From positions 1 to 45,162 of the forward strand of contig JASJCH010000004.1 in NCBI GenBank assembly GCA_030066075.1: DNA of 45,162 nt, read 5' to 3'. The translations under genes were made by a program, and so were the position numbers. Source of the stretch: Woeseiaceae bacterium. Lineage in GTDB: Bacteria > Pseudomonadota > Gammaproteobacteria > Steroidobacterales > Woeseiaceae. The notes beneath the pieces are model-generated. The model saw only the letters and a list, made by a program, of their open reading frames with translations, had not been told where the DNA came from and did no database searches. Below, piece after piece: positions 41,980-45,162 of the stretch; the first letter of the stretch is position 1; each line of letters starts with the position of its first letter.

Positions 41980-43809
41980 ATGACCCCCGACGCTCATGGC
42001 ATCGCCGTCCTGGTCCTGACGATACTCGCGTTATTCCTGTTCACGCGTGACAGGATCCCGCTCGAGTCCTCGTCGCTAGCCATCCTGATCATCCTCGTCG
42101 TCGGTTTCGAACTCGTTCCCTATTACAGGGATGGCGAACGTGCACTGGCGCCTGCAGACTTCTTTATCGGCTTCGGTAACGAGGCACTGGTCGCGATTTG
42201 TGCGCTGATGATGGTCGGCAAGGCGCTCGAGACCACGGGCGCACTGCAACCACTTGCGAATGTCGTCGGCAAAGCCTGGGCGACGCGCCCGGTTATGGCG
42301 TTGCTGACGACGCTGGTTGCAGGCGCCGTGCTCAGTGCGTTCATGAACAACACGCCGATCGTCGTGCTACTGATGCCGATCCTGGTTGGCGCATCGCTGC
42401 GCTCGAAATTCCCGGTGTCGGAAGTCATGTTACCGATGGGGCTGGCGACCATCGTCGGCGGCATGTCGACCACGATCGGCACCTCGACCAACCTGCTGGT
42501 TGTCGGCATCTCGCAAGACCTCGGCATGCACCAGTTCTCGATGTTCGAGTTCGTGCTGCCGGTCACGATCGTCGGCGGCGCCGCCATCCTGTTCCTGTGG
42601 CTCGTGGCGCCGCGACTGTTGCCCGACCGCACGCCGCCGATGGCGGACACGACGCCGCGCATTTTCAGCGCCCAGCTGCACGTCAAGGAAGGCGGCTTCG
42701 CCGATGGCAAGAAGCTCTCCGAGGTCCTCGCCAAGTGCGACGGTCACATGCGCATCGACAAGATCCAGCGCAGCGAATCCCTGCAGCTTGCCAAGCTGCC
42801 CTCGGTGGTGCTGCAGCCGGGCGACAGGCTGTTCGTCAAGGACTCGCCGGAGAACCTCAAGCACTTCGAGCAGCTTATCGGGGCGACCCTGTTCAACATC
42901 TCGGACATCGAGCACCCGGTCGACGAGGAGACGCCGCTCAAGGCCGAAGGCCAGCAGCTGGCGGAGGTCGTCGTTACGCGCGGGTCGCCGCTCCATCTGC
43001 GCAGCCTGGCCGCGGCACGTTTCTCGAGCAGCTACGGGCTGATGCCGCTGGCGTTGCACCGCGCCCGCGCGCCGAGCTCCCAGGTGACGGGCGACCTCAA
43101 CATGATCCGCCTGCGCGCCGGCGATGTGCTGCTGGTCCAGGGTTCGGGCGAGGCCATTTCCAGGCTCAAGGACAGCGGCTCGATGCTCGTGCTTGACGGT
43201 ACGACCGACCTGCCGCACACGCACAATGCGAAACGCGCGCTGGCAATCATGGGCTTCGTCGTGGCGGCCGCAGCGCTCGGCATCATGCCGATCTCGGTCA
43301 GCGCAATGGTTGGCCTGGGCCTGATGATCGTTACGGGCTGCCTGAGCTGGCGCGACGCCACAACCGCCCTGTCCATCCCCGTCGTGATGATCATCGTCGC
43401 CTCGCTCGCGCTCGGTAAAGCCCTGGTCGGCACCGGCATGGCGAACTTCGTCGCCGAGGGTTTCGTCGGGTCCGTATCGGCCCTGCCGACGCCGATGATC
43501 CTGAGTGCGTTCCTGCTGCTGATGACGGTGCTGACTAATATCGTCTCGAACAACGCGGCGGCGGCGATCGGCACGCCGATCGCGATCGGTATCGCCCAGC
43601 AGCTCGGGGTGAGCGTGGAGCCCTTCATCCTCGCTGTGCTGTTCGGCGCCAACATGAGTTTTGCCACGCCGTACGGTTACCAGACGAACCTGCTGATTCT
43701 GAGCGCCGGCGGCTACAAGTTTGCGGACTTCCTCAGGGTCGGTATTCCGCTCACCATAATCATGTGGATCGGCTTCTCCCTGGTGCTGCCGATGATGTAC
43801 GAGCTGTAA
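41980..43809 (+). CDS. SLC13-type anion transporter with two RCK_C domains
   Basis: 609 residues from the ATG at 41980; a GTG three codons earlier (41971) is also possible. Two membrane halves of about five to seven helices each flank a soluble middle with two TrkA-C/RCK_C domains (about 228-310 and 320-405; VLQPGDRLFVKDSPENL and RLRAGDVLLVQGSGEAIS are their matching turns). Substrate-loop motifs are TTIGTSTNLLVVG in the first half and FATPYGYQTNLLILSAGGYKFADF in the second, plus SNNAAAAIGTP. Relatives carry sulfate, dicarboxylate or other anions with sodium; the RCK_C domains probably sense a ligand. Substrate not readable. It follows the hypothetical gene by 20 bases. Confidence 0.92.
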   Translation: MTPDAHGIAVLVLTILALFLFTRDRIPLESSSLAILIILVVGFELVPYYRDGERALAPADFFIGFGNEALVAICALMMVGKALETTGALQPLANVVGKAWATRPVMALLTTLVAGAVLSAFMNNTPIVVLLMPILVGASLRSKFPVSEVMLPMGLATIVGGMSTTIGTSTNLLVVGISQDLGMHQFSMFEFVLPVTIVGGAAILFLWLVAPRLLPDRTPPMADTTPRIFSAQLHVKEGGFADGKKLSEVLAKCDGHMRIDKIQRSESLQLAKLPSVVLQPGDRLFVKDSPENLKHFEQLIGATLFNISDIEHPVDEETPLKAEGQQLAEVVVTRGSPLHLRSLAAARFSSSYGLMPLALHRARAPSSQVTGDLNMIRLRAGDVLLVQGSGEAISRLKDSGSMLVLDGTTDLPHTHNAKRALAIMGFVVAAAALGIMPISVSAMVGLGLMIVTGCLSWRDATTALSIPVVMIIVASLALGKALVGTGMANFVAEGFVGSVSALPTPMILSAFLLLMTVLTNIVSNNAAAAIGTPIAIGIAQQLGVSVEPFILAVLFGANMSFATPYGYQTNLLILSAGGYKFADFLRVGIPLTIIMWIGFSLVLPMMYEL

Positions 43810-43824
43810 TTACATTCGCAACCG

Positions 43825-43852
43825 TTGACCTGCACCCGGGTCGCGGTAATAC
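43825..43852 (+). promoter_or_regulatory. Predicted trp promoter
   Basis: TTGACC (43825-43830) and TAATAC (43847-43852) with a 16-base spacer make the best sigma-70 match in the window. The expected start point, seven or eight bases after the -10 box, falls on the A of the leader-peptide ATG at 43860. Confidence 0.75.
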
Positions 43853-43859
43853 TCGCCGC

Positions 43860-43919
43860 ATGAACGCTCGTCGCAACAACTGGTGGTGGCTGTCCTCGAA
43901 GGAGGGGGCGGCTGGCTGA
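43860..43919 (+). CDS. trpL: trp operon leader peptide (MNARRNNWWW type)
   Basis: A 19-codon open frame, too short for most gene finders: MNARRNN, three consecutive Trp codons (43881-43889), then LSSKEGAAG and TGA. It lies directly before an attenuator and trpE, so it is a classic transcription-attenuation leader: when charged tRNA-Trp is scarce, the ribosome stalls at the Trp codons and lets the antiterminator form. No Shine-Dalgarno precedes it, and the predicted transcript begins at its ATG, so translation would be leaderless. Function rests on established attenuation knowledge plus the sequence layout. Confidence 0.88.
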   Translation: MNARRNNWWWLSSKEGAAG

Positions 43920-43976
43920 CCATTAGCTGAGCGACATTCCAGGCCCATCTCCGCGATCGTGGTGATGGGTTTTTTT
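43901..43976 (+). terminator. trp attenuator: antiterminator and intrinsic terminator
   Basis: Terminator: CCCATC (43944-43949) pairs with GATGGG (43964-43969), extended inward by CC/GG across a mismatch, and is followed by seven T (43970-43976). Antiterminator: GGAGGGGGCGGCTGG (43901-43915) can pair with CCAGGCCCATCTCC (43939-43952), with bulges, and would remove the terminator's left arm. A competing short 1:2 stem is CCTC/GAGG (around 43894-43905), just after the Trp codons. The pairings were drawn by eye, not by energy calculation. Confidence 0.85.
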
Positions 43977-43980
43977 ATGG

Positions 43981-45162
43981 GTGACAAAGTTGGAAGCACC
44001 GTTTGACATAGCAGCAGATCTCGACACGCCGGTATCGGCGTACCTCAAGCTGCGCGACCTGCAGCCGCGGTTCCTGCTCGAGAGCGTCGAGGGCGGCGAA
44101 CGCCTGGCGCGCTACTCCTTTCTCGGCTTCGGCGAGGCCCTCGAGGTGCGCATGGACGACCAGGCCCTGCACATCAATGGCCAGAGCGCCGCGCGGCCGT
44201 CTGATCAGCAGGAGTACCTCGACGCACTGCGCAGCGCCCTCGCCCAGGCGCCACGACCGGGTCCGGAGGTCGACGGGCTGCCATTCGCAGGCGGACTCGT
44301 CGGCGTATCGGGCTACGACGTCGTGCGCCTGTTCGAGAGACTGCCGCGCAGCGTCGACGTGCAGTCCGACATACCCGATGCGGCATTCGTCGCGCCGGCG
44401 TCGCTGCTTGTCTTCGATCACCTGACGCGCCGCGTCGCCCTGCTGCACGACGGCCCCGAAGGCGAGCGGCAGGCACTGCGGAACGAGGTCATTCGTTGCC
44501 TGCGCGGACCGGTCCCGAACGGCAACGGCGCCGTCGAGATTTCGCCTGCCAGCGCCAGCTTCACCGAGGAAGAGTTCTGCGAGAGGGTCGACGCGTGCAA
44601 GGAGTACATCGCGGCGGGCGATATTTACCAGATAGTGATATCCGTCCTGTTCAAGGGCCGCAGCAATGTCTCCCCGTTCGAGGTCTACCGCGCGCTAAGA
44701 CTGCTCAACCCGTCGCCGTACATGTTCTTCCTCGAATTCGGCGACCTCAAGGTCGTAGGGTCCTCACCGGAGGCGCTCGTCAAGCTCAACGGCAGCACGG
44801 CGTCGCTGCGCCCCATCGCCGGCACGCTGCCGCGCGGCGAGACGCCGCAAGAAGACCGGGCCAACGAGGCCGCGCTGCTCGCCGATCCCAAGGAAGCGGC
44901 CGAGCACGTGATGCTCGTCGACCTGGCGCGTAACGATCTCGGCCGGGTGGCGTCGCCCGGATCGGTCGAGGTCGACCCGTACCGCGCGATCGAGCGTTAC
45001 AGCCACGTCATGCACATCGTGAGCGGTGTCAAAGGCGAGCTGGCCGAAGGGCGCGACCAGTTCGACCTGTTTGCGGCCAGCTTCCCGGCCGGGACGCTCG
45101 TTGGCGCGCCCAAGGTTCGCGCCATGGAGATCATCGAGGAGATGGAGCAGGTCGGCCGCGGC
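43981..45162 (+). CDS. trpE: Anthranilate synthase component I, 3' end beyond window
   Basis: A GTG start at 43981 opens 394 codons without a stop up to the window edge. LLES at residues 32-35 is the motif that binds feedback-inhibiting tryptophan. The chorismate-binding domain shows EYIAAGDIYQIVIS, PSPYMFFLEFG, SSPEALVKL, RPIAGTLPRG, HVMLVDLARNDLGRV, SHVMHIVSGV and GTLVGAPKVRAMEII. It makes anthranilate from chorismate and glutamine-derived ammonia with TrpG. The GTG begins only four bases after the attenuator T-run, leaving little room for a ribosome site. An ATG at 43977 opens a nine-codon out-of-frame peptide overlapping the start. Control is by attenuation plus probable Trp feedback. Confidence 0.96.
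   Translation, partial: MTKLEAPFDIAADLDTPVSAYLKLRDLQPRFLLESVEGGERLARYSFLGFGEALEVRMDDQALHINGQSAARPSDQQEYLDALRSALAQAPRPGPEVDGLPFAGGLVGVSGYDVVRLFERLPRSVDVQSDIPDAAFVAPASLLVFDHLTRRVALLHDGPEGERQALRNEVIRCLRGPVPNGNGAVEISPASASFTEEEFCERVDACKEYIAAGDIYQIVISVLFKGRSNVSPFEVYRALRLLNPSPYMFFLEFGDLKVVGSSPEALVKLNGSTASLRPIAGTLPRGETPQEDRANEAALLADPKEAAEHVMLVDLARNDLGRVASPGSVEVDPYRAIERYSHVMHIVSGVKGELAEGRDQFDLFAASFPAGTLVGAPKVRAMEIIEEMEQVGRG

Follow-up and report, generated by a model that had tools for sequence, protein, structure and literature searches.

In Escherichia coli, the trp leader peptide gene trpL is leadered and has a ribosome site, and TrpR acts in addition. The trpL RNA of Sinorhizobium meliloti starts at its own AUG (PMC7298713, PMC10117765); rnTrpL of this species targets a separate trpDC mRNA, and the leader peptide acts on smeR (PMC7298713). 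The trpL of Streptomyces lividans has also been mapped as leaderless (PMC8079986). Searches of open-access papers turned up no leaderless trp leader described from Gammaproteobacteria. Here, we describe a trp locus from Woeseiaceae, placed by NCBI in the Gammaproteobacteria (Woeseiales). The original prediction had likened this locus to trpL of S. meliloti, and the resemblance is correct as architecture. The trp operon is very probably under the control of a ribosome-mediated transcription attenuator whose leader peptide gene is leaderless; its exact 5' end, leaderless initiation, and response to Trp are what we infer.

The trp locus and the predicted start of its transcript

The window, by which we mean the whole 45,162-nt stretch of DNA analyzed, corresponds to contig C93 in an assembly of 2.58 Mb with 80% completeness, and the promoter, leader, and trpE features described here are on its plus strand. 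The gene order runs from a transporter gene through the promoter, trpL, and a terminator-like hairpin to trpE, and the 3' end of the transporter gene (43809) lies approximately 15 nt ahead of the -35 element. The trpE gene (anthranilate synthase component I, 43981-45162) matches TIGR00564 with an E-value of 1.7e-120, has a GTG start, and is truncated at the contig end; the nearest relatives of its product are TrpE proteins of Woeseiaceae, with identities of up to 91%. The GTG at 43981 is located 4 nt past the T run of the terminator, without an evident Shine-Dalgarno sequence in 43970-43981, and an out-of-frame ATG at 43977 occurs just ahead of it. At another locus (L007), the T run extends to 2487 and so overlaps the TTG start at 2486, and in other relatives the distance from the T run to the trpE start extends up to about 200 nt.

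The -35 element TTGACC is located at 43825-43830, and its TTGAC is invariant in 70/70 Woeseiaceae loci (70 of 71 were scored, as the contig of the 71st does not hold the region). The original prediction gave correct coordinates for the promoter and trpL, and its TTGACC stands, but its -10 register (TAATAC after a 16-nt spacer) is one base off. The string TAATACT covers 43847-43853, and the -10 element is read here as AATACT at 43848-43853, with a 17-nt spacer; [A/G/T]ATACT is found in 64/70 loci, and the spacer is 16-18 nt across the 70 scorable loci and 17 nt in 59 of them. A promoter scanner chooses the AATACT register too, and the interval 43500-44100 holds no other promoter-like site (shuffle mean 0.2).

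The -10 element and the trpL ATG are separated by 6 nt in the window, by 6 nt in 16/70 Woeseiaceae loci, and by 7 nt in 54/70. Spacings of 5 and 8 nt never occur, which is informative because the matching rule admitted 5-8 nt. The base before the start codon is C or T in 65/70 loci, and a pyrimidine at -1 with A at +1 is the usual preferred context for transcription start. With the conserved -10 register, the A of the trpL ATG (43860) is therefore itself the predicted +1, in line with the earlier proposal of a start on or next to it. There is no Shine-Dalgarno sequence ahead of this ATG, and a Shine-Dalgarno core of at least 4 nt is absent in 62/70 Woeseiaceae loci. The TTG of the -35 element was also considered as an upstream trpL start and was rejected, being out of frame in the window and 35 nt from the ATG.

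At the sequence level, then, a promoter that would place +1 at the start codon is combined with a missing ribosome site, and the comparison of upstream regions across related genomes (invariant TTGAC, and only 6-7 nt from -10 to ATG in 70/70 Woeseiaceae loci) supports the earlier reading of trpL as leaderless. The pattern TTGAC-N19-ATACT-N6,7-ATG occurs a single time in the whole genome of the window, at trpL, and has 14 matches across 59 genomes of the order, at least 10 of which are at trp leaders.

It is possible, if rather unlikely, that transcription starts near the ATG and not at it, leaving a 5' UTR of 1-5 nt, or that several starts are used; trpL would still be effectively leaderless, with no ribosome site. 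The 7-nt spacing at 54 of the 70 Woeseiaceae loci agrees with such a start, as do distances of 8-10 nt from -10 to ATG in some other families of the order, where 9-10 nt would leave a 5' UTR of 1-3 nt. The prevalence of a pyrimidine before the ATG, with A as the preferred first base, argues for a start on the ATG itself.

Attenuator structure and proposed mechanism

The leader ORF trpL (43860-43919) comprises 19 codons for MNARRNNWWWLSSKEGAAG and a TGA stop codon at 43917-43919. Three consecutive Trp codons, TGG TGG TGG (43881-43889), would serve as the sensor; relatives carry leaders at the corresponding place, in which the Trp codons are likewise tandem or near-tandem. A short ORF with tandem Trp codons is found between the promoter and trpE, and it is followed by the mutually exclusive antiterminator and intrinsic terminator of an attenuator.

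Pairing was expressed as the percentage of paired cells in an alignment of 65 Woeseiaceae leaders. Strand 1 (GGCUGUCC, 43888-43895) pairs with strand 2 at 43906-43913 (92.3%). Strand 2 (GGAGGGGGC, 43901-43909), which lies within the leader ORF, is the antiterminator partner of strand 3 (GCCCAUCUCC, 43943-43952; 94.8%), and the 3:4 hairpin with its T run forms the intrinsic terminator (43941-43976; 96.5%). Slid controls for the three pairings gave 37-56%. Three-way covariation (G-C-G to A-U-A) links alignment columns 60, 134, and 146, as is expected where alternative pairings have strand 3 in common. Counted by cells with changes on both sides, each of the two alternative structures exceeds every one of 500 shuffles. 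The aligned leaders thus support a classic attenuator with 1:2, 2:3, and 3:4 pairings. The terminator of the window reads CCCATC...GATGGG-T7 and ends at 43976, so that the predicted terminated RNA (43860-43976) would be 117 nt long; the motif CCCAUCUCC...GGGAUGGGU reappears across the order, and a terminator-like hairpin with a T run is present in 47/50 order genomes. A further helix, in which GCUCG of the 5' end (from 43866) would pair with CUGAGC after the stop codon (43927-43932), is tentative, with 71.5% paired cells against 24-37% in slid controls and no convincing covariation.

At four loci (L023, L032, L037, and L068), the leader ORF ends right after the Trp run (e.g., MNARLANVWWWQLS and a stop codon), before strand 2. 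The RNA sequence of strand 2 is kept at these loci despite the earlier stop codon; for this reason, conservation of the KE(G/R)AAG tail of the peptide is driven by RNA and is explained by the antiterminator.

We propose that RNA polymerase would begin on the A of the trpL ATG, or no more than about 3 nt away from it, and that the ribosome would initiate on the 5'-terminal AUG. When Trp-tRNA is scarce, the ribosome would stall on the UGG triplet and mask strand 1, allowing strand 2 to pair with strand 3 as the antiterminator and transcription to continue into trpE. When Trp-tRNA is plentiful, the ribosome would reach the stop codon and mask strand 2, so that 3:4 pairing would stop transcription in the T run and release an RNA of about 117 nt. 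The predicted folding energies of the 2:3 region alone (-20.5 kcal/mol) and the terminator (-19.1 kcal/mol) suggest that kinetics would decide between them. Because it takes no account of transcription order, a masking fold of the finished 117-nt RNA retains the terminator whichever state is modelled.

TrpR (TIGR01321) did not exceed the curated cut-off in any of 60 genomes, while the E. coli control was detected. With no classical TrpR detected, the trp operon is probably controlled mainly by attenuation. A weak TrpR match (L292:1471-1776) was set aside as a TrpR-related protein of the YerC/YecD family encoded directly upstream of a hisG-like gene, and it is probably a regulator of histidine rather than tryptophan genes.

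Distribution within and beyond the order

To assess the spread of the architecture, a promoter matrix derived from the Woeseiaceae loci and blind to both start codons and Trp codons was scanned along 450 nt of sequence ahead of trpE. The best site leads into a Trp-rich short ORF in 50/50 genomes from the order of the window (the 30 loci nearest to the TrpE of the window plus 20 chosen to cover families), with 6-10 nt between the two in all 50 and 5-8 nt in 44. Thirty-four of these genomes are outside Woeseiaceae and were not used to train the matrix. Among genomes of other gammaproteobacterial orders, sampled as the best TIGR00564 scorers only, such that rarer cases may be missed, 4/110 were positive and one of these is plainly spurious. 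Scores above the 99% shuffle level were obtained in 39 of the 50 order genomes and in 0/110 of the others. The original prediction had called a leaderless trpL unexpected in a gammaproteobacterium, and the low count elsewhere in the class bears this out; the architecture is, in turn, not unique to Alphaproteobacteria, as trpL of Streptomyces is leaderless too (PMC8079986).

A divergent follow-up batch of 16 genomes gave nine clear leaders, two ORFs with a single Trp codon, one leader that was not at the top-scoring site, and four genomes in which no leader was found, namely G278 and three members of family f181, in which TrpE identity is down to about 47%. An RNA covariance model, trained solely on Woeseiaceae leaders, gave matches in 69/97 order genomes, in most cases immediately ahead of trpE, and missed 28. 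Beyond the order, its matches reached no more than 37 bits, with many on both strands, and these weak matches were rejected as generic terminators. The predicted leaderless trp leader is widespread in the order and is not universal.

Several individual loci deserve mention. Outside the order, L163 (G210) holds a possible leaderless Trp leader, TTGATT-N18-TATACT-N6-ATG, encoding MNTFFQILAANARWRWFA and a stop codon. Two contigs labelled Phycisphaerae and Planctomycetota (L080 and L081) encode TrpE proteins 61-62% identical to that of the window and have Trp-rich leaders; gene transfer or a binning error may account for them. In genus g243, both trpE matches (G353:C24:44298-45476 and G300:C1:2834295-2835470) hold one in-frame TGA.

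Possible trans action and comparison with known systems

The original prediction also raised the possibility that the released attenuator RNA, the leader peptide, or both act in trans as in S. meliloti, which we consider improbable. The shared architecture, the absence of TrpR from the 60 genomes, which may leave transcription constitutive as in S. meliloti, the stable and structured RNA predicted for the leader (-53.8 kcal/mol, z -3.67), and some synonymous excess in the codons before the Trp run (replacement ratio of 0.36 in 42 close pairs) would be compatible with such a role. However, the synonymous excess fades beyond the closest pairs, with a ratio of 0.74-0.80 once wider sets are compared, the 65-leader alignment shows poor conservation of the linker that precedes the terminator, and the peptide tail is conserved as RNA, as the four leaders that stop before strand 2 indicate. 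Moreover, five genomes (G327, G336, G361, G319, and G341) carry trpE, trpD, and trpB on the same strand in a stretch of about 6 kb, which argues that a separate trpDC mRNA target of the S. meliloti type is absent; trpE-G-D-C are contiguous in L007, and the genome of the window itself has its trpD and trpB on a different contig (C78), close to a contig break. The proposal of a trans-acting RNA or peptide is therefore unsupported by the present comparison. It is similarly doubtful that the 117-nt RNA or leaderless peptide has a conserved trans role throughout the order that is independent of the rhizobial system and directed at different targets.

Least probable of all is a leadered attenuator expressed from a promoter further upstream or by transporter readthrough, with the apparent promoter incidental: the transporter gene ends so close to the -35 element that readthrough from it could add leadered transcripts, but 600 bp hold just one promoter-like site, TTGAC is kept at every scored locus, and an upstream start would gain little where most loci lack a Shine-Dalgarno core.

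The leaderless attenuator of the window would make this gammaproteobacterial order of abundant marine sediment bacteria a third lineage, beside rhizobia and Streptomyces, with a trp leader start predicted to be free of a ribosome site, and its leader defines an RNA family missing from Rfam. It makes testable whether a 5'-terminal AUG start suits attenuators, for instance because the leading ribosome would be tightly coupled to the polymerase. It also appears to separate the leaderless architecture from the trans-acting function linked to it in S. meliloti.

Like trpLE(G) of S. meliloti, the locus has a 5'-terminal AUG, here predicted, at the promoter start point, a leader with a Trp run, a terminator before trpE, and no evidence of TrpR control. 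In S. meliloti, trpE(G) is fused and trpDC forms a separate operon targeted by the sRNA, whereas trpE of the order described here is an unfused gene in a cluster with trpG, trpD, trpC, and trpB, and trans action of the kind known for rnTrpL and peTrpL is improbable for its leader. Promoter-to-start spacing at rhizobial trpE(G) loci is similar to that in the window, and the -10 consensus is ATACT here versus TAAC/TAAT-like there. Among 36 alphaproteobacterial loci, a Trp-rich leader accompanies 6/6 fused trpE(G) genes, and no convincing Trp leader was found at the 30 loci with unfused trpE; a leaderless trpL is therefore not general in Alphaproteobacteria. With TrpL1 of Streptomyces lividans, the locus shares a leaderless MFAHSTRNWWWTAHPAAH leader upstream of trpE and a terminator, whereas TrpL1 is actinobacterial and its trpE monocistronic, and no detectable sequence kinship is claimed. 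Tandem Trp codons, alternative 1:2, 2:3, and 3:4 hairpins, and a terminator are features in common with the trp leader of E. coli, but no Rfam leader family or other Rfam covariance model matches the leader of the window, even at E-values of up to 5. Alphaproteobacteria and Streptomyces were already known to have trp leaders of the leaderless kind, and what is new is the conservation of such a predicted leader across a gammaproteobacterial order.
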